Source: Acuticoccus sp. MNP-M23 (lineage in GTDB: Bacteria; Pseudomonadota; Alphaproteobacteria; Rhizobiales; Amorphaceae). From it: a DNA stretch of 64,000 bases. The DNA is taken from NCBI RefSeq assembly GCF_031195445.1, contig NZ_CP133480.1, positions 2,906,501 through 2,970,500 of the forward strand. Reading direction: 5' to 3'. The notes under the pieces are model-generated. The model searched no databases, was not told where the DNA came from, and worked only from the letters and a program-made list of their open reading frames with translations. This document shows, in pieces, positions 37,994 to 56,286 of the stretch. A program made the translations under genes and the position numbers. Position 1 is the first letter of the stretch. Each line of letters begins with the position of its first letter.

Positions 37994-38040
37994 GGCTACG
38001 CGAAAAAAGACGTAACCACCACAATTGGCATTACGACTAT

Positions 38041-38056
38041 TGGCACGAACGTTGCT
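38041..38056 (+). promoter_or_regulatory. Sigma-54 (RpoN) promoter for the branched-chain-type ABC operon
   Basis: TGGCACGAACGTTGCT matches the RpoN consensus TGGCACG-N4-TTGCW at every defined base, with the GG and GC dinucleotides exactly 10 bases apart. It lies in a gene-free 204-base region, 100 bases before the binding-protein ATG. The predicted start is near 38068. Confidence 0.85.
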
Positions 38057-38155
38057 GCCGAAATCCAGCAACCGGCCGTGGCGCGGGTGACTGACATCAC
38101 CTGCGAAGCGGTCTCTTTCACGGACTCAAGACCCGTGCCAACGGAAGGGAGCCAC

Positions 38156-39376: not shown

Positions 39377-39383
39377 TTCCGCA

Positions 39384-39410
39384 CCGGGGCGCGCCTCAGG
39401 TGCGTCCCGG
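39384..39410 (+). repeat. GC stem-loop after the HAAT-type binding protein gene
   Basis: CCGGGGCGC (39384-39392) pairs with GCGTCCCGG (39402-39410), with one G-U pair, around a nine-base loop. It lies between the binding-protein stop and the AhpD-like gene. No T-tract follows. Confidence 0.5.
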
Positions 39411-39429
39411 CCCCCAAACGGAGGTCGCC

Positions 39430-39978
39430 ATGCCGCATTTCCCGTCCATGCCCGACGATGCGCTCGTCAAGGACATTTACCCCTTCAAGCCGGCCCTTTT
39501 CCGCGACTGGTGCAAGGTCGAGGAAGCGATCATGCGCGGCCCTTCCGCGTTTTCGCCCGGCGAGCGCGAGATGATGGGCGCCTACTGCTCCCGCCTCAAC
39601 GACTGCACCTACTGCTACTCCTCGCACTCTGAAACGGCGATCCTCTTCGGCATCGACCCGCCGGTGTTCGAGGCGCTGATGGAAGGGGTCGACACCGCCC
39701 CCATCGACGAGAAGCTGAAGCCCGTCTTCCGCTACCTCAAGGTGCTCACGCTGGAGCCCTACAAGATCACGCAGACGCTCGCGAACGCCGTGTTCGATGC
39801 TGGCTGGAGTGAAGACGCGCTGCAGGAGGCGATCCTCGTCTGCTGCGCCTACGCCTTCATGAACCGCCTCGTCGACGGCCACGGCCTGCCGTCCGACCCC
39901 ACTCTCTTCAAGGCCCGCGCCAAGCGGCACTTCGAGGAGGGCTACGTCGCCCAGTACGCCACAGAAACCACGGACTGA
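39430..39978 (+). CDS. AhpD-like/carboxymuconolactone decarboxylase-family protein in the ABC operon
   Basis: A 182-residue all-helical protein of the AhpD/CMD superfamily. The redox motif is CTYCYSSH, with Cys59, Cys62 and His66 spaced as in AhpD-type peroxidase-related proteins. The length fits the uncharacterised peroxidase-related group. It sits between the binding-protein and permease genes, an unusual place for a redox enzyme. Its ATG has a good GGAGG ribosome site. It could protect the pathway from peroxide or reduce a substrate-derived species; the function is not established. Confidence 0.85.
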   Translation: MPHFPSMPDDALVKDIYPFKPALFRDWCKVEEAIMRGPSAFSPGEREMMGAYCSRLNDCTYCYSSHSETAILFGIDPPVFEALMEGVDTAPIDEKLKPVFRYLKVLTLEPYKITQTLANAVFDAGWSEDALQEAILVCCAYAFMNRLVDGHGLPSDPTLFKARAKRHFEEGYVAQYATETTD

Positions 39979-39986
39979 TCCACCCC

Positions 39987-40847
39987 ATGGATATTGCCCA
40001 GATTGTCGTCAACGGCGTCGTCCTCGGCGCCCTCTACGCCTGCATCGCGATCGGCTTTTCGCTGGTGTGGGGCGTTCTCAACATCATCAACATGCTGCAC
40101 GGCAGCTTCATCATTCTGGGCGGGTACCTCACCTGGTTCGCCTACCAGTACATGGGCGTGAACCCGATCATCGTCCTGCCGTTCGTCGCCATCGCGCTCT
40201 ACGGGCTCGGCTACGCGATCCAGTACATCTTCATCAACAAGGTGGTGACGGCGCCGGTCCTGACCACGCTGACGCTCACCTTCGGCCTCGACATGATCCT
40301 CTACAACCTGATGACGGTGACCTTCACCGCCACCCCGCGCCGCGTGACGCTGGACCTTGGCACGGTGGACCTCTTCGGCATCTTCATGCCGGTCGATCGC
40401 ATCCTCGGCATGGCGCTGGCGCTTCTCCTCACCGGGCTCCTCTACGTGGTGATGCGCGGCTCCAAGATCGGCCGCGCCATTGTCGCCGTGCGCATGGACC
40501 GGCAGGCGGCGGCGCTGATGGGCATCCGCGTCAACCGCATCTACGCCATCACCTTCGGCATCGGCGCGTTGATGGCAGGTGCCGCGGGCGCGGTGTTCGC
40601 GATGGTGTTCCCCGTCACCACCAACCTGACCGGCGCGTTTCTCGGCAAGGCGTTTGTCGTTTGCGTGATCGGCGGGCTTGGCAGTGTGCCGGGTGCTCTG
40701 GTGGGCGGCATGGCGCTCGGCCTGATCGAGAGCTTTGCGGGCTACTTCTTCGGGCCGCAGCACGCCATCACGCTCGGCTTTGTCGTGATGCTGGTCCTCC
40801 TCCTCGTCCGTCCCACCGGCCTTGTCGGCGTGAAGGGGTACGAATGA
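39987..40847 (+). CDS. livH: Branched-chain-type ABC transporter permease LivH family
   Basis: A 286-residue inner-membrane permease. Landmarks are VVLGALYACIAIGFSLVWGV, NIINMLHGSFIILGGYLTW and VCVIGGLGSVPGALVGGMAL. It forms the channel with the LivM-type subunit. Its stop overlaps the start of the next permease by four bases (ATGA). Confidence 0.92.
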   Translation: MDIAQIVVNGVVLGALYACIAIGFSLVWGVLNIINMLHGSFIILGGYLTWFAYQYMGVNPIIVLPFVAIALYGLGYAIQYIFINKVVTAPVLTTLTLTFGLDMILYNLMTVTFTATPRRVTLDLGTVDLFGIFMPVDRILGMALALLLTGLLYVVMRGSKIGRAIVAVRMDRQAAALMGIRVNRIYAITFGIGALMAGAAGAVFAMVFPVTTNLTGAFLGKAFVVCVIGGLGSVPGALVGGMALGLIESFAGYFFGPQHAITLGFVVMLVLLLVRPTGLVGVKGYE

Positions 40848-41815
40848 TGCCGGGTTCTCTCAAATACGTCATCTTTGCGGCCTGGGTCGCGCTGCTACTG
40901 GCCTCGCCCTTCCTCGGCGGCAACTACATCGTGCGTATCGCGATCTCCATCGCCATGTTCTCCGCACTCGCCCTGTCGTGGAATTTCATCGGCGGCTTCA
41001 CCGGCTACCCCTCGTTTGCCACCGCCGCCTTCTACGGCCTCGGCTGTTACGCGGGCGCTCTGGTGCAGCGGGCGGGGATGCCGGCGGCCGTCGCATGGGT
41101 GTTTGCGGGGCTGTTCGTTGCCCTCTTCGCGCTGGCGCTGGGCGCGATCATCCTGCGCCTCAAGGGGCACTACTTTGCCATCGGCTCCATCGCCATCGTG
41201 GAGGTGACGCGGCTCGTCGTCTCGTCCTGGGGCAGCCTCACCGGCGGCGGCAACGGGCTCAACGTGCCGCTCCTTCAGGGCGGGCCGCAGTACGTGTCCA
41301 TGCTGGTGCTTTACGTGATGGTCGGCGTGATGCTTCTCGCCTTCGCCGCCACCGTGCTGGTCGACCGCGGACGGCTCGGCTTCGGCCTCCGCTGCATCAA
41401 CCAGAACGAGGACGCCGCCGACATGGTCGGCATCGACGTCACCCGCTACAAGATCGCAGCCTTCGGCCTCTCGGCGCTTTTCTGCGGCATTGTCGGCGCG
41501 GTTTACGCCTCCTGGGTCGGCTACATCGACCCGACGGATTCCTTCTCCATCCTGCTGACGGTGAAAGTGCCGGTGATTGCGATGTTGGGCGGGGCGGGCA
41601 CTGTTCTCGGCCCCGTGCTCGGCGCCGGTGTGTTCGTGATTTTGGAGGAATATTTCTGGGCGAACTTCCTTGACTGGAACCGCGCGATCCTTGGCGGGAT
41701 CATCGTGTTCCTGATCTTCTTCCTGCCCGGCGGCATCCTGCGGCTCGACTATCGCAAGACGCTGAAGCGCCTTTCCGGCAGCCGCAACATCGCGCCAAAG
41801 GAGACGCGGGCATGA
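40844..41815 (+). CDS. livM: Branched-chain-type ABC transporter permease LivM family
   Basis: A 323-residue permease with LSWNFIGGFTGYPSFATAAF, ILRLKGHYFAIGSIAIVE and MLGGAGTVLGPVLGAGVFVI as landmarks. Two in-frame ATGs (40844, 40847) overlap the livH stop. The last four bases overlap livG. Confidence 0.92.
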   Translation: MMPGSLKYVIFAAWVALLLASPFLGGNYIVRIAISIAMFSALALSWNFIGGFTGYPSFATAAFYGLGCYAGALVQRAGMPAAVAWVFAGLFVALFALALGAIILRLKGHYFAIGSIAIVEVTRLVVSSWGSLTGGGNGLNVPLLQGGPQYVSMLVLYVMVGVMLLAFAATVLVDRGRLGFGLRCINQNEDAADMVGIDVTRYKIAAFGLSALFCGIVGAVYASWVGYIDPTDSFSILLTVKVPVIAMLGGAGTVLGPVLGAGVFVILEEYFWANFLDWNRAILGGIIVFLIFFLPGGILRLDYRKTLKRLSGSRNIAPKETRA

Positions 41816-42558
41816 GCATTCTGGAACTCGAGCACGTCTCCAAGGCGTTCGGCGGCATTCAGGCCACCAACGACGTCTCGTTCGGGCTGGAGGAGGGCGA
41901 GATCGTCGGCCTCATCGGTCCGAACGGGGCCGGCAAGACGACGCTCGTTAACCTCATCACCGGCGTTCACACCCCGTCGGCCGGCTCGATCCGCTTCGCT
42001 GGCGAGGACGTGACGCGCCAGCACCCCTTCCAGGCCGCCCGCCGGGGCCTTGCCCGCACGTTCCAGATCGTGCAGCCGTTTCCTGAAATGACGGTGGTGG
42101 AGAACGTCGCCGCCGGTGCCCTGTTCGGCGGCGGTGCGGCATCCAAGCGCGCCGCGATGGATCTGGCGCGCAAGGAGCTGGAGTTCGTCGGCCTTGGTGC
42201 GGTGGCGGACGAGCCCGCCTCGGCGCTGACGCTCCCCAACCGCAAGCGGCTGGAGCTCGCCAAGAGCCTTGCCATGAAGCCCAAGGTGCTGCTGCTGGAC
42301 GAGGTCAATGCCGGCCTCAACGCCGCCGAGATCGACGGTGCGCTCGACCTCATCCGCGCCATCGCGGGGCGGGGCGTGACGATCCTCCTCATCGAGCATC
42401 TGATGAAGGTGGTCCTCTCCATCTCCCAGCGCATTCTGGTGCTCCACCATGGCGAGCTGATCGCATCCGGCGCGCCAAAGGCCGTGGTGGAAGACCCGGC
42501 CGTGATCGAAGCCTATCTCGGCGCCAAGTTCGCCGCCCGCTACAAGATGGAGGCCTGA
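41812..42558 (+). CDS. livG: Branched-chain-type ABC transporter ATPase LivG family
   Basis: A 248-residue ATPase. Walker A is GPNGAGKTT. The signature region is degenerate ([16 protein letters not shown] instead of LSGGQ), a feature of several LivG-type proteins. Walker B is [12 protein letters not shown] and the H-loop is LLIEHLM. Together with LivF it powers uptake. It starts inside the livM stop. Confidence 0.92.
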
Positions 42559-42559
42559 C

Positions 42560-43270
42560 GTGTCGCTTCTCGAAGTCAAGAATCTCGAGGCCGGTTACGG
42601 CGACGTGCAGGTGCTGTGGGACGTCTCGATCAGTGTCAAGCGTGGCGAGATCGCCTGCATCGTCGGGTCCAACGGCGCCGGCAAGACGACGCTCCTGCGC
42701 ACCATCTCGGGTCTCGTTCAGCCCAAGGGCGGCAGCATCAGCTTCGATGGTGAGGACATCGGCGGCAAGACGCCCGACCATGTGCTCGGCCGCGGCATCG
42801 CCCACGTTCCGGAGGGCCGGCGCCTCTTCAAGGGCCTGTCCGTGCGCGACAACCTGATGCTCGGCGCCTATCTGCGCTCCGATCAGGACGGCATCGCCAA
42901 GGATCTGGAGCACGTCATGGACGTCTTCCCGATCCTGCGCGAGCGCCAGCACCAGGACGCCAGCACCCTGTCGGGCGGCGAGCAGCAGATGTGCGCCATC
43001 GGCCGGGGCATCCTCTCCCGCCCCGCGCTCCTGATGATCGACGAGCTTTCGCTCGGCCTCGCGCCGCGGCTGGTGGACCGCCTTGGCGAGGCGCTGATCG
43101 AGATCAACAAGGCGGGGCTCACCATCCTTCTCGTGGAGCAGGACGTGATGACCGCGTTCGAGATCGCAACCGAGGCCTTCGTGATCGAGACCGGCCGCAC
43201 CACCATGTCCGGCACCACGGCGGATCTGGGGGACGACCCGAAGATCCGCGAAGCCTACATGGGGCTGTGA
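42560..43270 (+). CDS. livF: Branched-chain-type ABC transporter ATPase LivF family
   Basis: A 236-residue ATPase with Walker A GSNGAGKTT, the Q-loop area IAHVPEGRRLF, signature LSGGEQQMCAIGRGI and Walker B LLMIDELSLGLAP. The start is a GTG at 42560 behind GGAGG. Its last 16 bases overlap the convergent phosphoribosyltransferase gene, so both messages share an antisense end. Confidence 0.92.
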   Translation: MSLLEVKNLEAGYGDVQVLWDVSISVKRGEIACIVGSNGAGKTTLLRTISGLVQPKGGSISFDGEDIGGKTPDHVLGRGIAHVPEGRRLFKGLSVRDNLMLGAYLRSDQDGIAKDLEHVMDVFPILRERQHQDASTLSGGEQQMCAIGRGILSRPALLMIDELSLGLAPRLVDRLGEALIEINKAGLTILLVEQDVMTAFEIATEAFVIETGRTTMSGTTADLGDDPKIREAYMGL

Positions 43271-43977
43271 TCGAGGCTGCCGGGGATCGGCGTCCAGCCG
43301 GTCTCCACGCGGGTGAAGATGGGCGAGGCGAAGGCGCTCTTCACCCGGTCCGGCATGGCGGGGTCGACTGTGGCCAGCGCATCGCGCCACGCCGTCCCCT
43401 GCCGCATCGCCACCACAATGCGCTCCGGCGCACAGCCGAGCTTGCCCAGAAGGTGCAGCACGGAGACCATCGTGCCGCCGGTGGAGATTGCGTCGTCCAC
43501 CAGCACCACGCGCTTGCCTTCCAGCCGCGGCAGCGCGTTGGGATCGATGTAGACGCGCTTGCCGGCGCCGGGCGTGGTGATGGAGCGGACGGGCTCGGAC
43601 AGCGCCTCGTCGTACCAGAACTTGCGCGAGTAGCCGAGCGGCACGTAGTTGGTGTGCCCGAGGCGGCGGGCCATCTCGGGCGCGAACACCAGCCCGAGGG
43701 TCGGCATCCCGACCACCACGTCGGCGCCGTCCGCATGGCCGGCCATGATGTCCGACAGCGCATCGTTGACGGCGAACGAGGCGTGGTTGGCAATCAGCGA
43801 GGCGACGGCGCGCTCCCCGTCCGGCACCATGCGGATGGGAAGAACGAGGATGCGACCGTCGGTCAGCCGTGCGGGGTAGCCGTACTGGAACGGCGGCTCG
43901 GCGTTTCCGGCGGGATCGTCGGCAGGGAGGATCTGTTGCCAGAAATCAGTGGTGGGGCGGGTGAAATGACCTGTCAT
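43255..43977 (-). CDS. Phosphoribosyltransferase-domain protein
   Basis: A 240-residue protein with the type I phosphoribosyltransferase signature RVVLVDDAISTGGTM (PRPP-binding loop). Its N-terminal part contains VVVGMPTLGLVFAPEMARR, as in purine/adenine-type enzymes. The exact base substrate is not clear. It may salvage a base linked to the neighbouring pathway, which is inference. I prefer the ATG at 43977 to a TTG at 44016. Its start is only eight bases from the divergent Rieske gene, and its end overlaps livF. Confidence 0.8.
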   Translation of the reverse strand: MTGHFTRPTTDFWQQILPADDPAGNAEPPFQYGYPARLTDGRILVLPIRMVPDGERAVASLIANHASFAVNDALSDIMAGHADGADVVVGMPTLGLVFAPEMARRLGHTNYVPLGYSRKFWYDEALSEPVRSITTPGAGKRVYIDPNALPRLEGKRVVLVDDAISTGGTMVSVLHLLGKLGCAPERIVVAMRQGTAWRDALATVDPAMPDRVKSAFASPIFTRVETGWTPIPGSLDHSPM

Positions 43978-43985
43978 GGGCGGCC

Positions 43986-44327
43986 GTGACGGCTCCTCTT
44001 TGGCAACAAGTGGCAACGCTGGACGCGTTCGGCACCGGCAATCTGGCCGATGTGGTCGTCGGACGCGAGCTTGTCGTGCTGGTGCGCCGCAAATCGGGCG
44101 TTGCCGCCTACCAGGGTCTTTGTCCGCACGAATATGCGCGCCTGTCCGAAGGCCGCTTCGAGACTGATGATGAAGGCGAGTGGCTGACCTGCTCGCGCCA
44201 TCTCGCCCGCTTCCGGCTTTCGGATGGCGTTTGCCCGCGCGGCTGGCGCCTGCCGCCGCTGCGCCGCTACGCCGTCCGCGTGGAGGGCGAGGCGGTCTAT
44301 CTCGCCGACCCGCTCACGCCGCTCTGA
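43986..44327 (+). CDS. Rieske [2Fe-2S] ferredoxin-like protein
   Basis: A 113-residue protein with a Rieske cluster-binding pair: Cys46/His48 in CPHEY and Cys69/His72 in CSRH. The short length and lack of a membrane anchor fit a soluble ferredoxin component of a mono- or dioxygenase. No oxygenase partner lies beside it. Translation starts at a GTG at 43986. It is divergent from the phosphoribosyltransferase (eight bases) and convergent with the DUF1116 gene (seven bases). Confidence 0.88.
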   Translation: MTAPLWQQVATLDAFGTGNLADVVVGRELVVLVRRKSGVAAYQGLCPHEYARLSEGRFETDDEGEWLTCSRHLARFRLSDGVCPRGWRLPPLRRYAVRVEGEAVYLADPLTPL

Positions 44328-44334
44328 GCGCCGC

Positions 44335-45441
44335 TCACGGCCATGGCGCGACGCCGCGGCCGATGAGGCCGTGCGTGCCGGTCTCCTCCACCATCCCCAG
44401 CATGATGCCGAGCGTTTTGCGCGGGCGCGTCAGGTCGAGACCCAGGGCCACGTCGTCCGGGAACGACGGGTGGCGGCCGATATAGGCCTCGTGCGCGGCG
44501 GGGGAGAGGAAGGCGGCGGGAAGGTCGGGAAGGTTGGCACGCAGCGCCGGTGCGAAGCGGAGAGCGGCAGCGCCAAAGCCGAGCGCGTCGATGACAGCAC
44601 TATCGCCGATTGCGGGAAGGGGCGCGGTGCCCGCCGCATGGGGGCCTTCGGGTCGCTGTGCCGGCGCTGTCTGCCAACCGTCGCCGCTTGCGAGCTTCCA
44701 ACCCACCTCGCGGCCATTGCCGCCGCACGCAACCACCATGTCGCTGTCCGCCACACCGTCGCCTGCGGCCAGCATCAGCGCGGATGCGGCCATCACGATG
44801 TTGAGTGCGAACTGGCCGGCGGCATCGAGGTAGGCTTCGCTTTCTGACGACAGGCCGGTGAAGTGCTGGCGGATCGCGGCCTGCATGGCGGCGACGTTGC
44901 CGTGGAGGTCGTCGCCATTGACGAGGGCATCGGCCATCAGCGGCAAAAGCGGAACGGGCGCCTGGAGGCCGTGTGCAAGATCGGCGCCGATCCCGTCGGT
45001 GACGCTTTTCACCAGCGCCAGACCGTCCGCGCTGTCTCTGCCGAAGCGCAGCGCGATGGCGGGCGGGCCATCGTTGAGCGGCGAGACCTTTGCCGGTGCC
45101 TTGCCGTCAGCGTCCGTCACTTCCACGGCGAACATCGAGGGGCCGGCGACAAAGGCCAGCGGCGTCACGATGCCGAAATCCTGCGCCGGGGCGAAGTGGA
45201 TCTCCTGCGCGGCGATGGCGGCCCATCCGGCCTCGCTCCACCCCTCGTGAGCGAGTGCTGCAGCGGCGGCATTGCGCACCGGCTGCGGCACATCGCCAAG
45301 CGACGCGAACGGCGGGCCTGCATGAAAGAGCGTGCGCGGCGGCAGGTGGGCAACGAGTTCGCCGATTGGTGCGATGCGGGCCAGCTGCGGGCGGGCCGCG
45401 CACAGCGCCGCATGGGATGCGCGGGTGGCGGTGCTGCTCAT
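44335..45441 (-). CDS. DUF1116-family protein (AllG/YlbE-like)
   Basis: A 368-residue protein matching DUF1116: TLFHAGPPFASL near the N-terminus, GREVGWKLASGDGWQTAPAQ and AIGDSAVIDALGFG in the C-terminal half. E. coli YlbE, of this family, has been assigned as AllG, part of the oxamate carbamoyltransferase that ends allantoin breakdown. Its usual FdrA and YlbF partners are not in this window, so the role is open. It is the last gene of a coupled operon (ATG at 45441, four-base overlap). The homology was recognised from recalled family sequence and needs a search. Confidence 0.75.
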   Translation of the reverse strand: MSSTATRASHAALCAARPQLARIAPIGELVAHLPPRTLFHAGPPFASLGDVPQPVRNAAAAALAHEGWSEAGWAAIAAQEIHFAPAQDFGIVTPLAFVAGPSMFAVEVTDADGKAPAKVSPLNDGPPAIALRFGRDSADGLALVKSVTDGIGADLAHGLQAPVPLLPLMADALVNGDDLHGNVAAMQAAIRQHFTGLSSESEAYLDAAGQFALNIVMAASALMLAAGDGVADSDMVVACGGNGREVGWKLASGDGWQTAPAQRPEGPHAAGTAPLPAIGDSAVIDALGFGAAALRFAPALRANLPDLPAAFLSPAAHEAYIGRHPSFPDDVALGLDLTRPRKTLGIMLGMVEETGTHGLIGRGVAPWP

Positions 45442-46574
45442 GCCTTGCGCCCGAACAGCCGCGCGAAAATGATGCGCAGGAATGAAAGGCCGCTGGCGGC
45501 GCGTTGCGGGGCCGGTGCGCTCTCGCCCCTGGCTCTGGCAGCGAGGGCATCGGCGGTATCGGCCAGAATGCTGTCGGCCAGCGCCTCCACCAGCGCCGGA
45601 CGGCTGAACTGCGCCAGCGGCCCTTTGACGAGGTAGGTCATGTCGAGGTCGAGCCGGGTCGTGTCGCCGTCTGCGGCGGCGGCAAAGGCGAGTTCGCCTG
45701 ACAGGCGCGTGCCGCTGAGCGGGTCCCGCCCGCGGCCGACAACCTTGCCGGTATGGTCCGCAGCGTCTGCGCAAAACAGTCCCGCCCCGCGGAAGGTTGC
45801 AGTGACCGGCCCGAGCGCCACCTTGTAGGCGCCGGCAAACGGCTCGCCTTTGCCGGCGCTTCCTTCGGGCGGCGTGCCGAGTTTTGCGCCGGGAATGCAG
45901 TCGGCGATGGCATCAAGGTCGGTCAGCACCGCCCAGACCTTTGCAAGCGGTGCCTCCACGGCAAGCGAGCGTGTGAGGCGCGTTCCGCCGGTGAGCGGCT
46001 CCATTTCTTCCAGCTGCGCGGCGGGTACTGCGGTGTCGGCCTTTGCCGTGCCCGTCGCCGCGAGGCTCGGTTTGGCGCGGCGCTGGCGGGGGAGGGGCTG
46101 GACCGCAGCAGGCGGCGGGCTCTCCGCCAGCACCGCCTCGATGGCCGCGACGATCCCGGCATAGCCGGTGCAGCGGCACAGGTTGCCGGAGAGTTCGCGG
46201 CGGATGGTGGCGGTGTCGGCATCCGGCAGGCGGCGCACGATGTCGTAGGCCGTCACCAGCATGCCGGGCGTGCAGTAGCCGCACTGGAGCGCATGGTGGG
46301 CGGAGAAGGATTGGCGCAGCTGCGCCATCAGCGCGTCGTCTTCGAAGCCCTCGATGGTGTGGACGGCGGCGCCTTCGCAGGCGGCGGCCAGCGTGATGCA
46401 GGAGCGCACCGGGCGGCCATCCACAAACACCGTGCAGGCGCCGCACACCCCCTGTTCGCAGCCAACGTGGGTGCCGGTCTTGTGGCACGTCTCGCGTACG
46501 AAGTCGGCAAGGTTGGTGCGCGGCTCGGCGGCCTCGGATACGGCATCGCCGTTGAGGGAGAGGGCGAGTTTCAT
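45438..46574 (-). CDS. Fused CoxS-type [2Fe-2S] subunit and CoxG-like SRPBCC domain
   Basis: A 378-residue fusion. Residues 1-155 form the iron-sulfur subunit of a molybdenum hydroxylase: the plant-type cluster uses Cys39, Cys44, Cys47, Cys59, and the second cluster uses CGYC (98, 101) and CRC (133, 135). A Pro/Ala linker leads to a CoxG/SRPBCC domain at about 190-350 (KVWAVLTDLDAIADCIPGAKL). The end is a hydrophobic/basic helix (FLRIIFARLFGRKA) that may bind the membrane. CoxS and CoxG are normally separate. It sits between CoxM and DUF1116 genes, with four-base overlaps both sides. Confidence 0.88.
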   Translation of the reverse strand: MKLALSLNGDAVSEAAEPRTNLADFVRETCHKTGTHVGCEQGVCGACTVFVDGRPVRSCITLAAACEGAAVHTIEGFEDDALMAQLRQSFSAHHALQCGYCTPGMLVTAYDIVRRLPDADTATIRRELSGNLCRCTGYAGIVAAIEAVLAESPPPAAVQPLPRQRRAKPSLAATGTAKADTAVPAAQLEEMEPLTGGTRLTRSLAVEAPLAKVWAVLTDLDAIADCIPGAKLGTPPEGSAGKGEPFAGAYKVALGPVTATFRGAGLFCADAADHTGKVVGRGRDPLSGTRLSGELAFAAAADGDTTRLDLDMTYLVKGPLAQFSRPALVEALADSILADTADALAARARGESAPAPQRAASGLSFLRIIFARLFGRKA

Positions 46575-47368
46575 CGTTGGTCCATCAGAGCGAGCGCGCG
46601 GGTGAGGGCGGTGACGTGGAGGGTCGGCACCTTGAGGTCCGGCACTGTGGCGGCGACGGCCTCTTCCGGCGACAGCGTGCCTTCGATGAGAGCGTCCACG
46701 TCTTCGATGAGCCGGGGCGCGCCGCCCAGCGCACCCAGCGCGGCACGGCGGCGGTTGTTGGCGGGATCGTCCAGCACGACCGCGCTGGCCTTGGCAAACT
46801 CGCCCACCTGCCGCGTGTACTTGTTGTAGCCGAAGCGGGCGTTTTCGCCGGGGCGGGGGATTTCCACCGCCACGATCAGTTCGCCCGGCGCCAGCGCCGT
46901 GGTGAACGGGCCGGTGAGAAAATCCTCCACCGGCAGCGTGCGGGCACCTGCGGGGCCGTCGATGTGAATGGTGGCGCCAAGGCCGGTGGTGACGATCGCC
47001 CAGTCCGCCGCGGGGTCGGCGTGGGCAAGGCTGCCGCCGATGGTGCCGCGGTTGCGCACGGCGCGGTGGGCGATGTTGCCGGCGGCGGCGCGCATCCAGC
47101 CGGGCGTCGGGTCGATGGCTTCGCCGTCCTCGATCTCGGCGTGGGTGATGGCGGCGCCAATCAGCACGGAGGTTGCGGTCTCGCGCACCTCGCGCAGCGC
47201 CGGAAGGTCGGCGATATCGACCAGCGCGCCGGGGCGCACGAGGCGCAGGTTCATCATCGGGCCGAGGGACTGGGTGCCCGCGGCGGGCTTTACGCCCTCG
47301 CCGGCGAGGGCGGCCTTGGCGGCGGCGAGGTCTTCGGCGCCGCCATAGTCGAACGGGGCGGGCTTCAT
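46571..47368 (-). CDS. Molybdenum hydroxylase FAD subunit (CoxM type)
   Basis: A 265-residue FAD-binding subunit of the xanthine dehydrogenase/CODH family. FAD-binding landmarks are AAGTQSLGPMMNLRLVRPG and TIGGSLAHADPAADW. It passes electrons from the iron-sulfur clusters to the external acceptor. Overlaps of four bases with CoxL-type and CoxS-G genes show tight stoichiometric translation. Confidence 0.9.
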   Translation of the reverse strand: MKPAPFDYGGAEDLAAAKAALAGEGVKPAAGTQSLGPMMNLRLVRPGALVDIADLPALREVRETATSVLIGAAITHAEIEDGEAIDPTPGWMRAAAGNIAHRAVRNRGTIGGSLAHADPAADWAIVTTGLGATIHIDGPAGARTLPVEDFLTGPFTTALAPGELIVAVEIPRPGENARFGYNKYTRQVGEFAKASAVVLDDPANNRRRAALGALGGAPRLIEDVDALIEGTLSPEEAVAATVPDLKVPTLHVTALTRALALMDQR

Positions 47369-49710
47369 GCGGCCACCTTCGGGCGGGCGGTGGCGATGGC
47401 CTCCAGCACGCGCTCCGGTGTCAGCGGCACGGATGCGACCTCGGCACCGATGCCGGAGAGGGCATCGTTGACGGCGTTGGCGATGGCCGCAGGGGAGCCG
47501 ATGGCGCCGCTCTCGCCGATCCCCTTCTGGCCGTAGCGGCTGAGCGGAGATGGCGTCTCCATGTGGATGATGCGGATCGGCGGCACGTCGGCGGCGACGG
47601 GCAGGTGATAGTCGGCAAGCGTTGAGGCGAGGGGCTGGCCCGAACCGTCGTAATTCATTTCCTCGAAGAGGGCCGTGCCGATCCCCTGCACCGCGCCGCC
47701 ATAGACCTGGCCGTCGACGATCATCGGGTTGATCATGGTGCCGGCGTCCTCGACGATCACGTAGTCATCGAGCCGGATGTCGCCGGTGTCGAGGTCCACC
47801 GTGGTGGTGACGGCGTGGCAGGCGTAGGAGAACGTGCCGGTGTCCTTCACCGTCTTGTAGCCCTCGGTGGCTTCGAGGCCGCGCGGGTCGACCCCGTCCG
47901 GCAACAGCTGCGGCGCGCGGTAGAAGGTGTGCGCAACCTCTTTCAGCGTCACTTCGGCATTGCCGGCACGGGCTACACCGTCCGAGACGATCACGTCCGC
48001 CACATCGGCCTGGAGGAGGTGCGCGGCGATGGCGGCAACCCGGTCGCGCAAGGCAGCGCATACGGTGGCGACGGCGCCGCCAGCCATAACGGCGCAGCGC
48101 GAGCCCCATGTGCCGGTGGAGTAGGGCGTCATCGCGGTGTCGCCGTGGACGAGGCGGACGCGGTCCGGCTCGATGCCCAGCTCCTGCCAAGCGATCTGCG
48201 ACAGCGTGGTTTCCAGCCCCTGGCCGTGGCTGTGGACGCCGACGCGCAGCTCCAGCCCGCCATCGGGCGTGAAGCGGGCGGTGGCCTGCTCGAAGCCCGG
48301 CACCATCGGGATGCCCCAGCCGTGGTAGACGGAGGTGCCGTGCGCCCCCTGCTCGCAGAACACCGCAAGGCCGACGCCGGTTCGGGTGCGGCCGGTCTCT
48401 GCCTTCTGGCGGGCGCGGATGGCGGGGAGGTCGATGGCCTCCACCGCGCGCTTCAGGGCTTCGGGATAGTCGCCGCTGTCGAAGAACTTGTTGGTGATGT
48501 TGGTGAAGGGCATCTCGTCGGCGCGCACCAGGTTGCGGGCGCGGATCGCCTCCTGGCTCATGCCCAGCTCGCGCGCCAGCGCATCCAGCGTCAGCTCCAT
48601 GGCGAAGCACACGCCGGTGCGGGCAACGCCGCGGAACGGCAGGATCGGCGGCTTGTTGGTGGCAACCGAAAACGTGCGGCAGCGATAGTGGGAGAGCTTG
48701 TAGGGGCCTGGGAGGATGCTCCCCACCTGCGCCGCCTCAAGGCAGGCCGAGAACGGGTAGCTGGAGTATGCGCCCGAATCGACGATGGCCTCGCATTCGA
48801 GGCTGAGAAGTTCGCCGTCGGCGGCTGCGGTGGCGGTGATCTCGTAATGGTGCTCGCGGCAGTTGGCGCCCGCGATGAGGTGTTCGCGGCGGTCTTCCAG
48901 CCAGCGGATCGGGCGGTCCAGCTTGATGGCGAGGTAGGCGGCGCAGACTTCTTCGGGGAGCAGGATACCCTTGTAGCCGAAGCCGCCGCCAACGTCGGGC
49001 GCGATCACGCGGATGCGCTCCTGCGGCATCCCGAGGCATTCGGCCAGCCCGTTGCGCACGATGTGCGGCATCTGGGTCGCTGAATAGAGCGTCAGCATTT
49101 CAAGGTTGCGATCCCACACCGCCAGACAGCCGCGGCCCTCGATGGGGGCCATGCACTGGCGCGCGGTGCGGTAGGTGCGCGTGACGGTGACGCTGCCCTC
49201 CGGGGCCGCCGGCCGCTCGCCGGTGTCGACCACGGATTCCAGAAACGCGTTTTCCTCCCAGCCTTCGTGGAGGAGGGGAGCGTCCTTGTCGCGGGCGCGC
49301 GTCATTTCGTGAACGGCGGGGAGTTCCTCGAAATCGATATCCACCTGTTCGGCAAGGTCTTCGGCCTCCGCTCTGGTGGGGGCGAGGCAGGCCGCCACGG
49401 TCTCGCCGACGTGGCGCACCTTGTCGAAGGCGAGGATCGGCTGGACGGAGGAGCGGAAGCCCGGCAGGCCCGAATCGGCGCGGATCCCGGTGACGCCCTC
49501 AAGATCGGCCGCGACGAAGGCGAGGCCCTCGGGCTTTTGCGCGCCGCGGATGCGGCCGTGCGCCAGCGGGCTGCGCACGAACGCCATTTCCAGCATGTCG
49601 GCCATCCGCATGTCGCCGATATACCTGCCACGACCGCGCAAAAAGCGGTCGTCTTCCTTGCGCAGGAGCGAGGCGCCGACACCGCGGCCGGCGTGAGGCT
49701 TCGTCGTCAC
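47365..49710 (-). CDS. Molybdenum hydroxylase large subunit (CoxL/XdhB-like), atypical active-site loop
   Basis: A 781-residue molybdopterin subunit. N-terminal RKEDDRFLRGRGRYIGD opens the aldehyde oxidase/xanthine dehydrogenase a/b hammerhead domain. Molybdopterin-binding landmarks are VGGGFGYKG and GVHSHGQGLETT. The catalytic Glu is in GIGESGAIG near the C-terminus. The loop that is AYRGAGR in many form II proteins (CSFR in true CODH) is PFRGVAR here, so a CO dehydrogenase role is unlikely. It starts at a GTG at 49710, overlapping the amidohydrolase stop. The substrate is likely an N-heterocycle or aldehyde. Confidence 0.9.
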   Translation of the reverse strand: MTTKPHAGRGVGASLLRKEDDRFLRGRGRYIGDMRMADMLEMAFVRSPLAHGRIRGAQKPEGLAFVAADLEGVTGIRADSGLPGFRSSVQPILAFDKVRHVGETVAACLAPTRAEAEDLAEQVDIDFEELPAVHEMTRARDKDAPLLHEGWEENAFLESVVDTGERPAAPEGSVTVTRTYRTARQCMAPIEGRGCLAVWDRNLEMLTLYSATQMPHIVRNGLAECLGMPQERIRVIAPDVGGGFGYKGILLPEEVCAAYLAIKLDRPIRWLEDRREHLIAGANCREHHYEITATAAADGELLSLECEAIVDSGAYSSYPFSACLEAAQVGSILPGPYKLSHYRCRTFSVATNKPPILPFRGVARTGVCFAMELTLDALARELGMSQEAIRARNLVRADEMPFTNITNKFFDSGDYPEALKRAVEAIDLPAIRARQKAETGRTRTGVGLAVFCEQGAHGTSVYHGWGIPMVPGFEQATARFTPDGGLELRVGVHSHGQGLETTLSQIAWQELGIEPDRVRLVHGDTAMTPYSTGTWGSRCAVMAGGAVATVCAALRDRVAAIAAHLLQADVADVIVSDGVARAGNAEVTLKEVAHTFYRAPQLLPDGVDPRGLEATEGYKTVKDTGTFSYACHAVTTTVDLDTGDIRLDDYVIVEDAGTMINPMIVDGQVYGGAVQGIGTALFEEMNYDGSGQPLASTLADYHLPVAADVPPIRIIHMETPSPLSRYGQKGIGESGAIGSPAAIANAVNDALSGIGAEVASVPLTPERVLEAIATARPKVAA

Positions 49711-50960
49711 GCTGCGATGGCGTCCGGCACGAGGGGGCTGTCGACGTCGAACCGCTCGCCGTCCTTCAGGCACAGGATCGGGCGGACGAGCAGGTCGCTG
49801 ACGACCTCCTCGCCGGAGTTGTCCATCAGCTTGAACTTGCCTTCCTCGATCTTGAGGAGGCTGATGTCCGCAACGCGGCCCACTTCCAGCGAGCCGATCT
49901 CGTCCGACATGCCAATGAGTTCGGCGGGGTTTTTCGTGACCATCGCGACCACCGTTTCCAGCGGGATACCGAGATAAAGAAGCTCGGTCATCGCGATGGT
50001 GAGGTTGAACGGGGCAACGCCGAAGAACGGGCTTTCGGCGCGGGAGCCGTCCTCGCTCGCCTCGGGCACTTTCACGTTGTAGCCGTGCATGTCGGCGCCG
50101 AGCGTGTAGGGGATAATCCCCGCGCCAATCACCTTGCGCGCCACTGCGAACGAGAAGTGCGAGCCATGGCCGACGTCGGTGCGCACGCCCTTCTGCTTGA
50201 CCGCTTCCAGAATGATGGGGTGGATTTCGCCGGCATCGTTCACGTATCCGCCGGGGTGACGGGTGAACGGGTGGGCCATCACGTCGCCGGCATCCATGAT
50301 CGGCACCAGCTCGCGGATCAGCTCGTCGGCGTCAGGGATCTCGGCGCTGTCGGCGGTGGGCCAGAGCTGGCCGAGGTGGATGTAGAGCGGCACGCCCACT
50401 TCGTTGGCGATCTTCTTGCCGATCTTGATGACATCCATGCCCCAGCGGGACTGGCCGCCGATCTCGGCATGCGCCTTGATGCCGCGCACGATGTCGCGGT
50501 TTTCCTTGGCGACGCGGATGGTGTGCTCGGCGTTGACGCCGATGGGGCCGTAAAGGTCCGGGTAGAGGTGGCCTTCGAGACCGCCGACCAGATAGGCGGA
50601 GATGAAGCACAGGACGCGGGTCTTGGCCGGCTCGCTGACATAGTGGCGGAAGCCGCCGATGGTCATGCAGCTGGGGCCGCCCTGGTCGATGATGGTGGTG
50701 ACGGCGGAGCGCACGCCCACCATGTCCGCGTCGAGGCCGAACTTGCCCGTGACGTACTGGTAGACGTGGCCGTGGGTGTCGATCATGCCGGGGGTGACGA
50801 TGTGGCCCGTCGCGTCGATGATTTCCCTGGCCTCGACGGTGGAGAGGTTGGGCGCGATGTCGGCGATCTTGCCGTCTTTTACGGCAACGTCGAAGCGGCC
50901 GTTGCGGCCGGCTGCGGGGTCGATCAGCGTCCCGCCGCGGATCAGAGTGTCAACCTGCAC
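49707..50960 (-). CDS. Amidohydrolase/deacetylase-family metallohydrolase
   Basis: A 417-residue TIM-barrel metal-dependent hydrolase. It starts with the small beta-sandwich (LIRGGTLIDPAAGRNGRFD) and has the first metal motif DTHGHVYQY, a likely metal His in LYIHLGQLW, HPFTRHPGG, and a late Asp in the LGADMHG area. It resembles the EF_0837/AHA_3915 deacetylase group, related to dihydroorotases, which open cyclic amides. The start is a GTG at 50960 with AAGGAG eight bases before. It begins the hydroxylase operon. A cyclic amide hydrolysis step after hydroxylation would fit, but is inference. Confidence 0.88.
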   Translation of the reverse strand: MQVDTLIRGGTLIDPAAGRNGRFDVAVKDGKIADIAPNLSTVEAREIIDATGHIVTPGMIDTHGHVYQYVTGKFGLDADMVGVRSAVTTIIDQGGPSCMTIGGFRHYVSEPAKTRVLCFISAYLVGGLEGHLYPDLYGPIGVNAEHTIRVAKENRDIVRGIKAHAEIGGQSRWGMDVIKIGKKIANEVGVPLYIHLGQLWPTADSAEIPDADELIRELVPIMDAGDVMAHPFTRHPGGYVNDAGEIHPIILEAVKQKGVRTDVGHGSHFSFAVARKVIGAGIIPYTLGADMHGYNVKVPEASEDGSRAESPFFGVAPFNLTIAMTELLYLGIPLETVVAMVTKNPAELIGMSDEIGSLEVGRVADISLLKIEEGKFKLMDNSGEEVVSDLLVRPILCLKDGERFDVDSPLVPDAIAA

Positions 50961-51052
50961 GCCATGCTCCTTCGTGTGTTCGTCGCCGCCAACCCGCTGC
51001 TTTCGCGTGTTGCCCTGCGGCTGATCCGAAATGGTCGTAATGCCAATAGTGA

Positions 51053-51064
51053 TATGTACACATA
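51053..51064. promoter_or_regulatory. Palindrome in the MarR/amidohydrolase divergent region
   Basis: TATGT-AC-ACATA is a perfect 12-bp inverted repeat, in the 214-base region between the divergent starts, about 90 bases from the amidohydrolase GTG. Its AT-rich surroundings suggest a promoter. MarR-family regulators bind such palindromes, so it is a candidate operator. Confidence 0.5.
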
Positions 51065-51174
51065 ATAGTTTGAAGTGTGAGGCGGCGGACTGTCAAGTCC
51101 GCCCCGGCGCTTGCGAAACCTGCTCCGGGTCGCGCATAGAGGAATAGTGCTGACGTGATGCAAGGAGCGGGCCG

Positions 51175-51672
51175 ATGGACGCCGTCGTGCCAAGGACAGA
51201 ACCGACCGACCCGTGGCGCGGCAACGCGCTGCAGGAACGGCCGGGCTTTCTCATCCGCCGCCTGCACCAGATCCATACCGCCATTTTCGCCCGCGAGATC
51301 GGCGGCCATCACCTGACGCCGATCATGTACTCCGTGCTTTCCGCCCTGTCGCAGATCGGCCCGTCCGACCAGACCACGCTGGCGGCCGCCGTGGAGATCG
51401 ACAAGACCAATATGGCCGATGTGCTGGAGCGCCTGAGGAAGCGCGGCCTGGTGCGCCGCCGCACCTCCACCAGGGACCGCCGGGTGCGCATGGCAACCCT
51501 GACGGACGAGGGCCGCGCCACACTGGAAGCGGTGGATGCCGCCGCGGAGCGGGCGCACCACGCAACGCTGGACGGGCTCAGCGAGGAGGAGCGGGCGCTG
51601 TTTCTCGCGATGATGAAACGGATCGTGGCGCACAATGCGCCGACGGAGGCAGCGCGCGAGGACGCGGCCTGA
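51175..51672 (+). CDS. MarR-family transcriptional regulator
   Basis: A 165-residue winged-helix protein. The DNA-binding part includes SDQTTLAAAVEIDKTNMADV and LRKRGLVRRRTSTRDRRVRM with the typical basic wing (TSTRDRR). It is divergent from the hydroxylase operon and probably controls it by sensing a substrate or intermediate. Its GFA-family neighbour follows 64 bases on the same strand. Confidence 0.92.
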   Translation: MDAVVPRTEPTDPWRGNALQERPGFLIRRLHQIHTAIFAREIGGHHLTPIMYSVLSALSQIGPSDQTTLAAAVEIDKTNMADVLERLRKRGLVRRRTSTRDRRVRMATLTDEGRATLEAVDAAAERAHHATLDGLSEEERALFLAMMKRIVAHNAPTEAAREDAA

Positions 51673-51736
51673 CCCGGCCTCGCACCGCGGCGCCCGCTGG
51701 CCTATCATAGACGCTGCAAAGTCTCCTGGAGGGGCC

Positions 51737-52156
51737 ATGACGGGTCAATGTCTGTGCGGCGCGGTTCGCGTCACGATCGAATCGAAGCCTGAATTCATCC
51801 ACGACTGCAATTGCAACCTGTGCCGCAAGTCCGGCGGTGCCTGGGGCTACTTCGCCACGGGCATGGTGGCGGTCGCCGGAAATACCGCCTCCTTCCTGCG
51901 CCGCGACAAGGCAAACGCCGCAGCGGAGGTCCACTCCTGCACCACCTGCGGATCGACGACGCACTGGTCGTTCTCCGATGCTTTCAGGGCTGAAAATGCG
52001 TCCGTCGACCTGATGGGCGTCAACATGCGGATCTTCGACCCGCAAGAGCTGGCGGGCGTCGAGGTCCGTTATCCCGACGGCAACGCGTGGGCCGGCGCAG
52101 GCCCGTTCGAGTACCGGCGCGAGGCGATGACCATCGGTGAGGGTTCGCCCTGGTAA
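51737..52156 (+). CDS. GFA-family zinc protein
   Basis: A 139-residue GFA-fold protein with Cys motifs in GQCLCGAVRV, CNCNLCRKSGG and SCTTCGS. It is a distant paralogue of the protein at 4296. Its ATG has ribosome site GGAGGGG. It may be transcribed with the marR gene and ends at a strong terminator. The specific function is unknown. Confidence 0.85.
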   Translation: MTGQCLCGAVRVTIESKPEFIHDCNCNLCRKSGGAWGYFATGMVAVAGNTASFLRRDKANAAAEVHSCTTCGSTTHWSFSDAFRAENASVDLMGVNMRIFDPQELAGVEVRYPDGNAWAGAGPFEYRREAMTIGEGSPW

Positions 52157-52180
52157 CAGGGCACCGGCCCGCGCAAAGAA

Positions 52181-52214
52181 AAAGGGCGCCGCGATCAACG
52201 CGGCGCCCTTTTTT
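52181..52214. terminator. Bidirectional rho-independent terminator
   Basis: AAAGGGCGCCGCG (52181-52193) pairs perfectly with CGCGGCGCCCTTT (52199-52211) around ATCAA. A T-run follows on the plus strand and an A-run precedes it, so it serves both the GFA gene and the convergent large-subunit gene. Confidence 0.92.
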
Positions 52215-52232
52215 GTTGCGTGAGGCCGAAGC

Positions 52233-54536
52233 CTACTCGGCGGCCTGCCGGCGTGCGTCGTTGATCGCCTTCCAGAGCACGCCCGGCGTGGCGGGCATGT
52301 TGATGTCGGACACGCCGACATTGCGCCACATGGCGTCGATCACCGCATTCATGATTGCGGGGCAGGAGCCGATGGAGCCCGCCTCGCCAGCGCCCTTGAT
52401 CCCCATCGCGTTGTGCTTGGAGGGGATGTTGCGCGTCTCGAAATAGAGCGACGGCACGTCGTCGGCACGGGCGACGCAATAGTCGAGCAGGGAGGCGGTG
52501 ATGAGCTGGCCGTCCTCGTCGTAGACGGTGTTTTCGAGCAGCGCCTGACCGATGCCCTGCACCACGCCGCCGTGAACCTGGCCGGCGAGCAGGTTGGGGT
52601 TCACCGTCACGCCGAAGTCGTCGACTATGGTGTAGCGCAGCACTTCGGTGATGCCGGTGGCGGGGTCGATCTCCACCTCGGCAATGTGGGTGCCGTTGGG
52701 GAAGGTCGGTTCGGCGTGGGACACGTCGCCCGAACCGGAGGTGCCGGGGGCCTTCGCCGCAAGCTCCGAAAAGCTCACCGCCTTGTCGGTGCCGACGACG
52801 CGGATGGAGCCGGCGTCGAACTCGAGGTCGGCGGCTGCGGCTTCGAGGTGGTCGCTGGCGAGGTCCTTCATCTTCTGGGACAGCTCGTCGGTCGCCGCGG
52901 CGACCGAAGGCATGCCGAGCGGGATCGAGCGGGAGCCGCCGGTGCCGCCGCCGGTCTTCACGATGTCGGTGTCACCCTGGATCATGTCGACTTCGGAAAT
53001 GTCGACGCCGAGCTTTTCGGCGATCACCTGCGCATAGGCGGTGGCGTGGCCCTGACCGTTGGACTGGGTGCCGATGAGGAGCTGGAACTTGCCATCGTCC
53101 TTGAGGATGACTTCGGCCTTTTCCGAGCCCGGGAAGGCGCACGCCTCGATGTAGGTCGCAACGCCGATCCCGCGGAACTTGCCGCTGGCCGCGCTTTCCT
53201 CGTCGCGGGTGCGAAAAGTGTCGTATTCGGCAACTTCGAGGGCGCGGGTCATGTGGCCGTTGAAGTCGCCGGTGTCGTAGGTGCGGTCGGCGGCGGTCAG
53301 GAACGGCATCTGCTCCTGGGTGATGAAGTTGCGGCGGCGCAGCTCCAGCCGGTCGATGCCGGTGACGCGGGCCGCTTCGTCCACCAGCCGCTCGATGGTG
53401 TAGGCGGCCTCGGGGCGGCCGGCGCCGCGGTAGGCATCCACCGGCACGGTGTTGGTGAAAACGCCCTTGATGGCAACATACATCACGGGGATGGCGTAGA
53501 CGCCGGGCGCCATGGTGGTGCCGACCCACGGGATGAACGGGCCGAACTGGGCCAGATAGCCGCCCATGTTGGCCTTGAGGTCCACGCGCAGGGCGGTGAA
53601 CTTGCCGTTGTCGTCCATCGCAACTTCGGCAACGGTGACGTTGTCGCGGCCCTGGCTGTCGCACATGAAGGATTCGGAGCGCCCGCAGACCCATTTGACC
53701 GGGCGGCCAAGGTCCTTCGCGGCCTTCATCACCATCGGATATTCGTTGTAGACGAAGATCTTGGTGCCGAAGCCGCCGCCGACGTCGGGCGTGACGACGT
53801 GGATGTTCTCTTCCTTCTCCTGAAGGATCTCGGCCAGAACGTCGATCATGCCGTGGCCGCCCTGGGTGCCGGCGGTCAGGCGGTAGCGGCCGTTCTCATA
53901 TTCAGCGAGGCAGGTGCGCGTTTCCATGTAGTTGGCGACGACGCGGTTGTTGATGAGTTCGACCTTGGCGGTCTTCGCAGCCTTGGCGAAGGCTTCTTCC
54001 GTCGCGTCCTTGTTGCCCTGGGCGTAGAGGAAGGCGAGGTTGGAGCCGTGGTCCGGCCACACCAGCGGGGCGCCGTCTTCCAGCGCCTCTGCCGTGCCGG
54101 CGACGGCAGGCTCGCTGTCCCAGTCCACCTCGATCAGCTCGGCGGCATCGTTCGCCTGCTCGACGGTTTCGGCAACGACCATAGCAACCGGCACACCCAC
54201 ATGGTGGACGCGGCCGTTGGCGAGCGCGGGGCGCGGCGGCACGTTGGTGGCGGACCCGTCGGCCTGTTCCAGCGCGGCGCGGCAGGGCAGCGGCTTCAGG
54301 TCGGCAAGGTCGTCATGGGTGAAAACGGCGTGGACGCCGGGGGCGCCCTTTGCAGCGGCAGTGTCGTTGATGGTGAACGTGCCGGCCGCAATCGGAGAGC
54401 GCAGGAATACGGCGACCAGACAACCCTCGGGCTGGAAGTCGTCGCTGTATTTGCCGTGGCCGGTGATGAATTTCTTGTCCTCGACGCGAAGGGCGCGTGC
54501 CCCCACGCCGAACTTGGCCATGGTCATGTCGTTCAT
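52233..54536 (-). CDS. Orphan molybdenum hydroxylase large subunit (CoxL/XdhB-like)
   Basis: A 767-residue molybdopterin subunit with RVEDKKFITGHGKYSDD at the N-terminus, VGGGFGTKIF, the form II loop AYRGAGRPEAAY, GTQSNGQGHAT and the catalytic Glu in GAGEAGSIG. It is different from the protein at 47365 and has the more usual loop. No FAD or iron-sulfur subunit gene is adjacent, so it must share subunits or use ones encoded elsewhere. The ATG at 54536 has ribosome site GGGGGACGG. The substrate is not predictable. Confidence 0.9.
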   Translation of the reverse strand: MNDMTMAKFGVGARALRVEDKKFITGHGKYSDDFQPEGCLVAVFLRSPIAAGTFTINDTAAAKGAPGVHAVFTHDDLADLKPLPCRAALEQADGSATNVPPRPALANGRVHHVGVPVAMVVAETVEQANDAAELIEVDWDSEPAVAGTAEALEDGAPLVWPDHGSNLAFLYAQGNKDATEEAFAKAAKTAKVELINNRVVANYMETRTCLAEYENGRYRLTAGTQGGHGMIDVLAEILQEKEENIHVVTPDVGGGFGTKIFVYNEYPMVMKAAKDLGRPVKWVCGRSESFMCDSQGRDNVTVAEVAMDDNGKFTALRVDLKANMGGYLAQFGPFIPWVGTTMAPGVYAIPVMYVAIKGVFTNTVPVDAYRGAGRPEAAYTIERLVDEAARVTGIDRLELRRRNFITQEQMPFLTAADRTYDTGDFNGHMTRALEVAEYDTFRTRDEESAASGKFRGIGVATYIEACAFPGSEKAEVILKDDGKFQLLIGTQSNGQGHATAYAQVIAEKLGVDISEVDMIQGDTDIVKTGGGTGGSRSIPLGMPSVAAATDELSQKMKDLASDHLEAAAADLEFDAGSIRVVGTDKAVSFSELAAKAPGTSGSGDVSHAEPTFPNGTHIAEVEIDPATGITEVLRYTIVDDFGVTVNPNLLAGQVHGGVVQGIGQALLENTVYDEDGQLITASLLDYCVARADDVPSLYFETRNIPSKHNAMGIKGAGEAGSIGSCPAIMNAVIDAMWRNVGVSDINMPATPGVLWKAINDARRQAAE

Positions 54537-54660
54537 TCAGCCGTCCCCCGGGGTCGTTTTATCGATTGCCACTGACTTAGCGCGCGCAGCGCCTCTGCGC
54601 TAGCGTGTGCCGTACCACTCGTTCGCGCAAGTTGGCGCGGTGCGGCGAAATGAGCGCCGG

Positions 54661-56277: not shown

Positions 56278-56286
56278 GGTGTTTCC

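Follow-up and report, generated by a model that had tools for sequence, protein, structure and literature searches.

The 64,000-nucleotide stretch of the Acuticoccus sp. MNP-M23 genome analysed here (contig NZ_CP133480.1, positions 2,906,501 to 2,970,500 of the forward strand), called the window below, carries a five-gene operon in which an amidohydrolase (AH), a three-subunit molybdenum (Mo) hydroxylase and a protein of the DUF1116 family follow one another with overlapping ends. The operon and its neighbours very probably form a conserved catabolic unit, the DUF1116 protein of which belongs to a separate clade whose loci lack FdrA. The substrate is probably an N-heterocycle. The best explanation as a whole, in which such a compound is hydroxylated, opened by hydrolysis and then cleaved as a linear product by DUF1116, is put forward tentatively, the chances being slightly against it. 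That DUF1116 is a hydrolase of an acylurea-like product is, taken by itself, a shade more tentative. The five genes of the operon are as follows.

49707-50960, minus strand: AH, an amidohydrolase/deacetylase-family metallohydrolase of 417 amino acids (aa), first gene of the operon (Pfam Amidohydro_1/3; PRK09237; metal-ligand motifs)
47365-49710, minus strand: CoxL-type Mo hydroxylase large subunit, 781 aa, GTG start (Pfam MoCoBD_1/2 and Ald_Xan_dh_C)
46571-47368, minus strand: CoxM-type flavin adenine dinucleotide (FAD) subunit, 265 aa (Pfam FAD_binding_5, 149 bits)
45438-46574, minus strand: CoxS [2Fe-2S] subunit fused to CoxG (SRPBCC), 378 aa (Fer2, Fer2_2 and COXG; both Cys motifs)
44335-45441, minus strand: DUF1116 protein (AllG family) of the FdrA-free clade, 368 aa (PF06545, 107 bits for a cut-off of 27)

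Families were assigned with Pfam and NCBIfam models and their cut-offs. Transcription runs on the minus strand in the order AH, CoxL, CoxM, CoxS-CoxG and DUF1116, and all four junctions, read directly in the sequence, are 4-nucleotide overlaps (GTGA, ATGA, ATGA and ATGA). A preliminary description of this DNA had reported such overlaps at every junction together with a divergent MarR gene, both of which are confirmed, and its claim of a single operon is supported. The genes flanking the operon include a Liv-type ABC transporter (38078-43270, plus strand) made of five genes plus one carboxymuconolactone-decarboxylase-like gene, and comparison of the relatives' loci places this transporter, which lies just beyond the range of the preliminary description, in the same conserved set as the operon.

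51175-51672, plus strand: MarR-family regulator, divergent from AH (PF01047)
51052-51063: near-palindrome between AH and MarR, a candidate operator (sequence pattern)
43986-44327, plus strand: Rieske [2Fe-2S] ferredoxin, 113 aa (PF00355, 43 bits; CxH...CxxH)
43255-44016, minus strand: type I phosphoribosyltransferase (PRT), 253 aa (Pribosyltran; PRK06031, 305 bits for a cut-off of 175; phosphoribosyl pyrophosphate motif)
42560-43270, plus strand: LivF-type ATPase
41812-42558, plus strand: LivG-type ATPase
40850-41815, plus strand: LivM-type permease, start approximate
39987-40847, plus strand: LivH-type permease
39400-39978, plus strand: carboxymuconolactone-decarboxylase-like (peroxidase-related) protein within the transporter operon (PF02627)
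38078-39376, plus strand: branched-chain-type ABC substrate-binding protein, start possibly nearer 38150

Related loci were obtained by scanning genome contigs with a profile from a DUF1116 alignment, 80 of 130 relatives being kept, and neighbour counts are conditional on DUF1116, since this family itself served as the query. Sixteen loci of the window's type, the window not counted, were assembled from the scan, from the loci of the window's order and from one plasmid; some of their contigs end early, which affects the gene counts. AH, DUF1116, MarR and the Rieske ferredoxin are present in 16/16 (including two Rieske matches just under 38%), CoxL, CoxM and CoxS-CoxG in 15/16, PRT in 14/16, LivG in 13/16, LivH in 12/16 and the substrate-binding protein in 11/16. 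The carboxymuconolactone-decarboxylase-like gene is shared only with L034 and L061. Gene order and orientation vary across these loci, yet the set is retained, which suggests that selection rather than one recently inherited block keeps it together, and its retention in differing arrangements puts it beyond chance. Co-conservation in relatives, on which the earlier proposal depended, is thus borne out. A search for AH in 397 genomes of the window's order found it in 23; the four genomes with AH at 72-100% identity are the same four that carry a window-type DUF1116, whereas none of the 19 with AH at 51-57% identity has a PF06545 match. The set occurs in 3 of the 8 listed genomes of the genus, and is thus an accessory trait. 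Cultured species carrying this cluster or a similar one are found in Tistlia, Sneathiella and Hwanghaeella and include Azospirillum brasilense.

The Mo hydroxylase has the make-up of the xanthine-oxidase family, with a large, an FAD and a 2x[2Fe-2S] subunit together with the catalytic Glu motif of that family, GESG, at residue 733 of CoxL (782-residue reading). Among solved proteins, CoxL comes nearest to quinoline 2-oxidoreductase (PDB 1t3q, 491 bits), a match that supports the earlier view of an N-heterocycle-type hydroxylase. The operon enzyme shares the three subunit types and the catalytic Glu motif with quinoline 2-oxidoreductase and other three-subunit Mo hydroxylases, from which it differs by the fusion of CoxG to CoxS and by its coupling to AH and DUF1116. 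At 52233-54536 (minus strand) the window encodes another large subunit of CoxL type, whose motifs are AYRGAGR and GEAG; no CoxM or CoxS was noticed beside it in the open reading frame (ORF) list of the window.

AH exceeds the PRK09237 cut-off (392 v 371 bits) and, aligned with PDB 2ogj, displays the metal-ligand motifs DTHGH, GIKAH, YIHLG, MAHPF and GADMHG (HxH, Lys, His, His and Asp), in agreement with the metal-dependent amidohydrolase recognised previously. Opening of a cyclic amide would be the natural role of such an enzyme after a hydroxylation, although the family holds deacetylases too.

This last point leaves room for an operon that oxidises something other than an N-heterocycle, for example an aldehyde, an acyclic amide or an ester, AH being then a deacetylase or esterase. 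Membership of AH in the amidohydrolase/deacetylase family PRK09237 fits such a reading, as does the resemblance of CoxL to the glyceraldehyde dehydrogenase alpha model, which stays under the cut-off (517 v 790 bits); the best solved relative of CoxL is, however, an N-heterocycle hydroxylase, and the conserved type I PRT and the HpxZ/HpxW-like links described below for relatives point to purine-like chemistry, so that we regard the idea as unlikely. An aerobic carbon monoxide dehydrogenase (CODH) or xanthine dehydrogenase (XDH) operon is very improbable and was rejected. CODH and XDH models do rank among the best NCBIfam matches of CoxL, but all named models remain below their cut-offs (389 v 780 bits for XdhA, 195 v 849.5 for xdhB), and a motif search of CoxL did not find AYRCSFR, the motif of form I CODH. 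A separate XDH large subunit is encoded elsewhere in the genome, above its cut-off (1120 bits); the sub-threshold scores and this separate XDH indicate that the operon enzyme is a different hydroxylase.

The E. coli DUF1116 protein is AllG, one of the three subunits (AllF, AllG and AllH) of oxamic transcarbamylase; according to PMC11326118, single genes yield no oxamate and allGH without allF restores 16% of the wild-type oxamate. A tree of 96 DUF1116 rows, from which 18 Bradyrhizobium rows had been dropped, splits with a support of 100/100 into a 45-row side holding the window protein, none with FdrA (AllF) at the locus, and a 51-row side holding E. coli AllG and all 34 FdrA-bearing rows. The two clades were then compared over 39 dereplicated loci each, plasmid loci being left out, as were L059, L061, L068, L085 and L088 on one side (near copies or short) and L042, L091, L096, L109, L122, L125, L127 and another nine loci from Bradyrhizobium on the opposite side. 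FdrA is near 0/39 loci of the window clade v 27/39 of the AllG clade, AllK near 0/39 v 22/39 and AllH near 0/39 v 4/39. The opposite holds for AH (22/39 v 0/39), this Mo hydroxylase (20/39 v 0/39), Rieske oxygenase (17/39 v 2/39), Rieske ferredoxin (15/39 v 0/39) and PRT (14/39 v 0/39). Either the Mo hydroxylase or a Rieske oxygenase is near 35/39 window-clade loci, both being present in two (L034 and L079) and a Rieske oxygenase without this Mo hydroxylase in 15/39; the loci with neither are L064, L084, L102 and L111, the contig of L102 beginning inside CoxL. Loci of this clade thus lack FdrA as a rule, and the window is no local oddity in this respect. DUF1116 occurs at 40 places in the window's order, of which 20 were read at ~20 kb and 31 at 3.3-3.7 kb, and 17 of these 31 have no FdrA match within ~1.5 kb. 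The preliminary description had called DUF1116 without FdrA unusual, which these counts contradict.

The partners were also sought in the genome itself. AllH (DUF2877) gave no match in this genome (98.29% complete), whereas the control search detects it in E. coli. The search for AllF returned a lone match (26% identity over query positions 117-293) in a 302-aa ORF, which we take to be a succinyl-CoA ligase alpha subunit, and this short match was rejected as an FdrA located elsewhere. E. coli-style carbamoyl transfer is thus unlikely. At the residue level, H40, E66, R132, D177, H180, N242, W256, D280 and S281 are kept on both sides of the tree, whereas the window has A86, Q87, A221, G241 and A277 at the positions of C92, H93, K238, R258 and D298, residues that the AllG clade conserves and that are mostly replaced throughout the window's clade; the last 18 AllG residues and some loops are missing as well. 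The AlphaFold2 model (predicted local distance difference test, pLDDT, 95.9) has as its only confident fold match the uncharacterised DUF1116 protein 3clq (TM-score 0.90). Alignment and model would fit a common binding site at which the reaction has changed. Compared with E. coli AllFGH, the window protein thus shares the family and the core residues, but it stands in a separate clade, in a genome in which AllF and AllH were not found, with AllG-conserved residues replaced and a shorter C-terminus. Since these partners and residues were looked for and not found, we do not class it as an oxamic transcarbamylase, and the earlier suggestion of carbamoyl transfer, taken as the E. coli reaction, is not supported.

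From these data we infer a substrate class, an order of steps and a reaction for DUF1116. The Liv transporter would import the compound or its precursor, and CoxL-CoxM-CoxS, aided by the fused CoxG, would add a water-derived hydroxyl to a ring carbon beside the nitrogen. The metal-dependent AH would then hydrolyse the resulting cyclic amide, and DUF1116 alone would cleave the linear product without carbamoyl phosphate or FdrA; this product would most likely be an acylurea resembling oxalurate, or an N-acyl amide. The products might go to urease, which is present in the genome, or to general metabolism. MarR would control the operon, the Rieske ferredoxin may carry electrons and the PRT, which suggests a base-like compound, may salvage a base-like intermediate.

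Clues to the DUF1116 reaction come from HpxZ, an AtzH-like protein whose model NF033625 refers by name to oxalurate catabolism (185 bits for a cut-off of 135). HpxZ lies near DUF1116 in L056, L067, L083, L134, L135 and L160, relatives that include Azospirillum and Caballeronia plasmids, and in all of them it is accompanied by its amidase at the locus (HPX module). DUF1116 is even fused to the AtzH/HpxZ domain in Pseudomonas flavescens (L069, 9971-11512; PF11533) and P. dryadis (L068, 9956-11512). In PMC11326118, AllG is tied to oxalurate, a link made separately for HpxZ by the name of its model, and PMC6219798 proposes that AtzH may convert 1,3-dicarboxyurea to allophanate. The atzG-atzE-atzH clusters presented there resemble the present loci through the AtzH/HpxZ domain, which two Pseudomonas species carry in fusion with DUF1116, and through transporter and amidase neighbours; the window differs from them in having no AtzH at the locus and another oxidation module. 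We consider the HpxZ neighbourhood suggestive. In one cluster, A. brasilense assembles AH, a GGT-type gene, a transporter, the Mo hydroxylase, CoxG, an amidase, HpxZ, MarR and DUF1116. The best PDB match of its GGT-type gene is 5hft, presumably Klebsiella HpxW. HpxW is an oxamate amidohydrolase (PMC5270733).

Some relatives thus recall the Klebsiella HPX system (hpxDE, hpxWXYZ) in that their clusters have HpxZ, an amidase and a 5hft-like GGT, and some carry a Rieske oxygenase in place of the Mo hydroxylase, whereas no HpxZ or HpxW gene adjoins the window cluster. To our knowledge, there is no DUF1116 among the HPX genes. Oxidation of hypoxanthine and xanthine is elsewhere carried out by a Mo hydroxylase. 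In Klebsiella, both are oxidised by the Rieske-type HpxDE (PMC7373994), and by analogy either oxidation module, Rieske or Mo, could perform one hydroxylation step. As a separate observation, a formate dehydrogenase operon on a Rhodococcus ruber plasmid (L138, 429-11170) has a DUF1116 gene on either side; genes for a Rieske oxygenase and for malate synthase are close by, a hint that the products may be formate and glyoxylate.

Another comparison is offered by loci that have AH and no DUF1116; within the order, 7 of the 19 such genomes were read. A kynurenine-formamidase-like alpha/beta hydrolase adjoins AH in L137 (11138-12007, Methylobacterium radiotolerans pMRAD01), L141, L143, L146 and L147, all without DUF1116; it is next to AH in 4/7 AH-only loci and in 0/39 loci of the DUF1116 clade. 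This mutual exclusion fits a hydrolase in the slot of DUF1116. The nearest NCBIfam model of this protein is hormone-sensitive lipase, under its cut-off. The AH - alpha/beta hydrolase - CoxLMS operon of pMRAD01 otherwise shares AH, CoxL, CoxM, CoxS-G, Liv, Rieske and MarR genes with the window.

Several observations weigh against a pathway ending with hydrolysis by DUF1116 alone. HpxZ is near only 4/39 clade loci (p 0.12) and is missing from the surroundings of the window operon; the sole HpxZ found in the genome is ~1.55 Mb away (C1:1359272-1360867), beside an AtzE-type amidase, and no PRK08310 amidase scores above cut-off in this genome, so that the HPX module of the relatives was not found here. 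In all, 12/39 clade loci gave no sign of this AH or of the amidases probed for, although five of them (L037, L066, L072, L073 and L082) do have an amidase ORF, and three of the seven AH-only loci (L142, L144 and L145) lack both DUF1116 and the alpha/beta hydrolase. E. coli AllG by itself gave no oxamate (PMC11326118). The transporter and the PRT give no firm ligand, with weak urea-binding-protein and adenine-PRT-like matches only, and Rfam at gathering thresholds found no match and hence no riboswitch in window positions 38000-57000. Finally, MarR and DUF1116 share one reading frame (556-574 aa) in the following four Sneathiella-type loci.

L057, 9458-11125: MarR-DUF1116 fused ORF
L058, 9470-11137: MarR-DUF1116 fused ORF
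L060, 9404-11125: MarR-DUF1116 fused ORF
L078, 9470-11137: MarR-DUF1116 fused ORF

These proteins could be regulator-enzyme fusions, or regulators with a DUF1116 sensing domain. The latter possibility bears on an alternative in which DUF1116 is a non-catalytic helper that either aids assembly of the hydroxylase or senses a ligand in partnership with MarR. The fusions raised the weight of this alternative slightly and lowered that of the proposed pathway by a little; in many loci MarR is also the gene immediately upstream of DUF1116, and in the window DUF1116 is closely linked to CoxS-CoxG. A hydroxylase-specific helper is nevertheless difficult to reconcile with a clade also linked to Rieske oxygenases, 15/39 of its loci lacking this Mo hydroxylase, or with the same type of Mo hydroxylase occurring without DUF1116 in L136, L137, L142-L144, L146 and L147, and the AllG core residues are retained, which together make the helper improbable. 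The same low probability is given to DUF1116 still being a carbamoyltransferase, which would phosphorolyse an acylurea to carbamoyl phosphate with other partners replacing AllF and AllH. The common core residues, the 3clq fold and the residual oxamate formation of allGH without allF (PMC11326118) agree with such an activity, but AllF and AllH were not found in the genome, AllF, AllH and AllK are near none of the 39 clade loci, and the five AllG-conserved positions are replaced; of these points the absence of AllH weighs less, as it is near only 4/39 AllG-clade loci as well.

Hydrolysis by DUF1116, if adopted, invites a wider and more doubtful generalisation. The FdrA-free clade might constitute a new class of stand-alone acylurea/amide hydrolases whose fold has so far been observed only in the uncharacterised structure 3clq. 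It would provide the third step common to a family of aerobic pathways for N-heterocycles not yet on record and built from exchangeable modules, with either a Mo hydroxylase or a Rieske oxygenase for oxidation and either AH or an amidase for ring opening; the MarR-enzyme fusion of Sneathiella would then be bifunctional and could couple turnover to gene control.

The individual enzyme families are known, and the operon is a variant of the 'Mo hydroxylase plus ring-opening hydrolase' theme. As the preliminary description had stated, no described pathway with this gene set was found among the literature matches listed, although a description in subscription papers is possible. A riboflavin pathway (PMC12746152, judged on the excerpt available) was considered and does not match the gene set. 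If the proposal is true, a function would be provided for a large branch of a family named only after its E. coli carbamoyltransferase member, with a caution against annotating the clade as oxamate carbamoyltransferase, the current Pfam name of the family, and an uncharacterised route would be added by which soil and marine bacteria gain nitrogen and carbon from ring compounds. The existence of cultured relatives (Tistlia, Sneathiella, Hwanghaeella and A. brasilense) makes it directly testable.

Some minor features accompany the cluster. The near-palindrome 51052-51063 is, as a sequence pattern, a possible though unproven MarR operator; its pattern has no site between AH and MarR in 16 relatives, L054 having one elsewhere. 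Rfam at gathering thresholds gave no match in 27 related loci apart from one tRNA. A family of ~210 aa (U13), of which one scanned member has no Pfam or NCBIfam match and an AlphaFold2 model with pLDDT 90.6 and no fold match, occurs in one or two copies beside a Rieske oxygenase and DUF1116 in 11/39 clade loci (L066, 5888-6517, and 10 others). A gene for a PhyH-type 2-oxoglutarate dioxygenase recurs beside the cluster in L055, L058, L060, L078, L083, L102 and L135.

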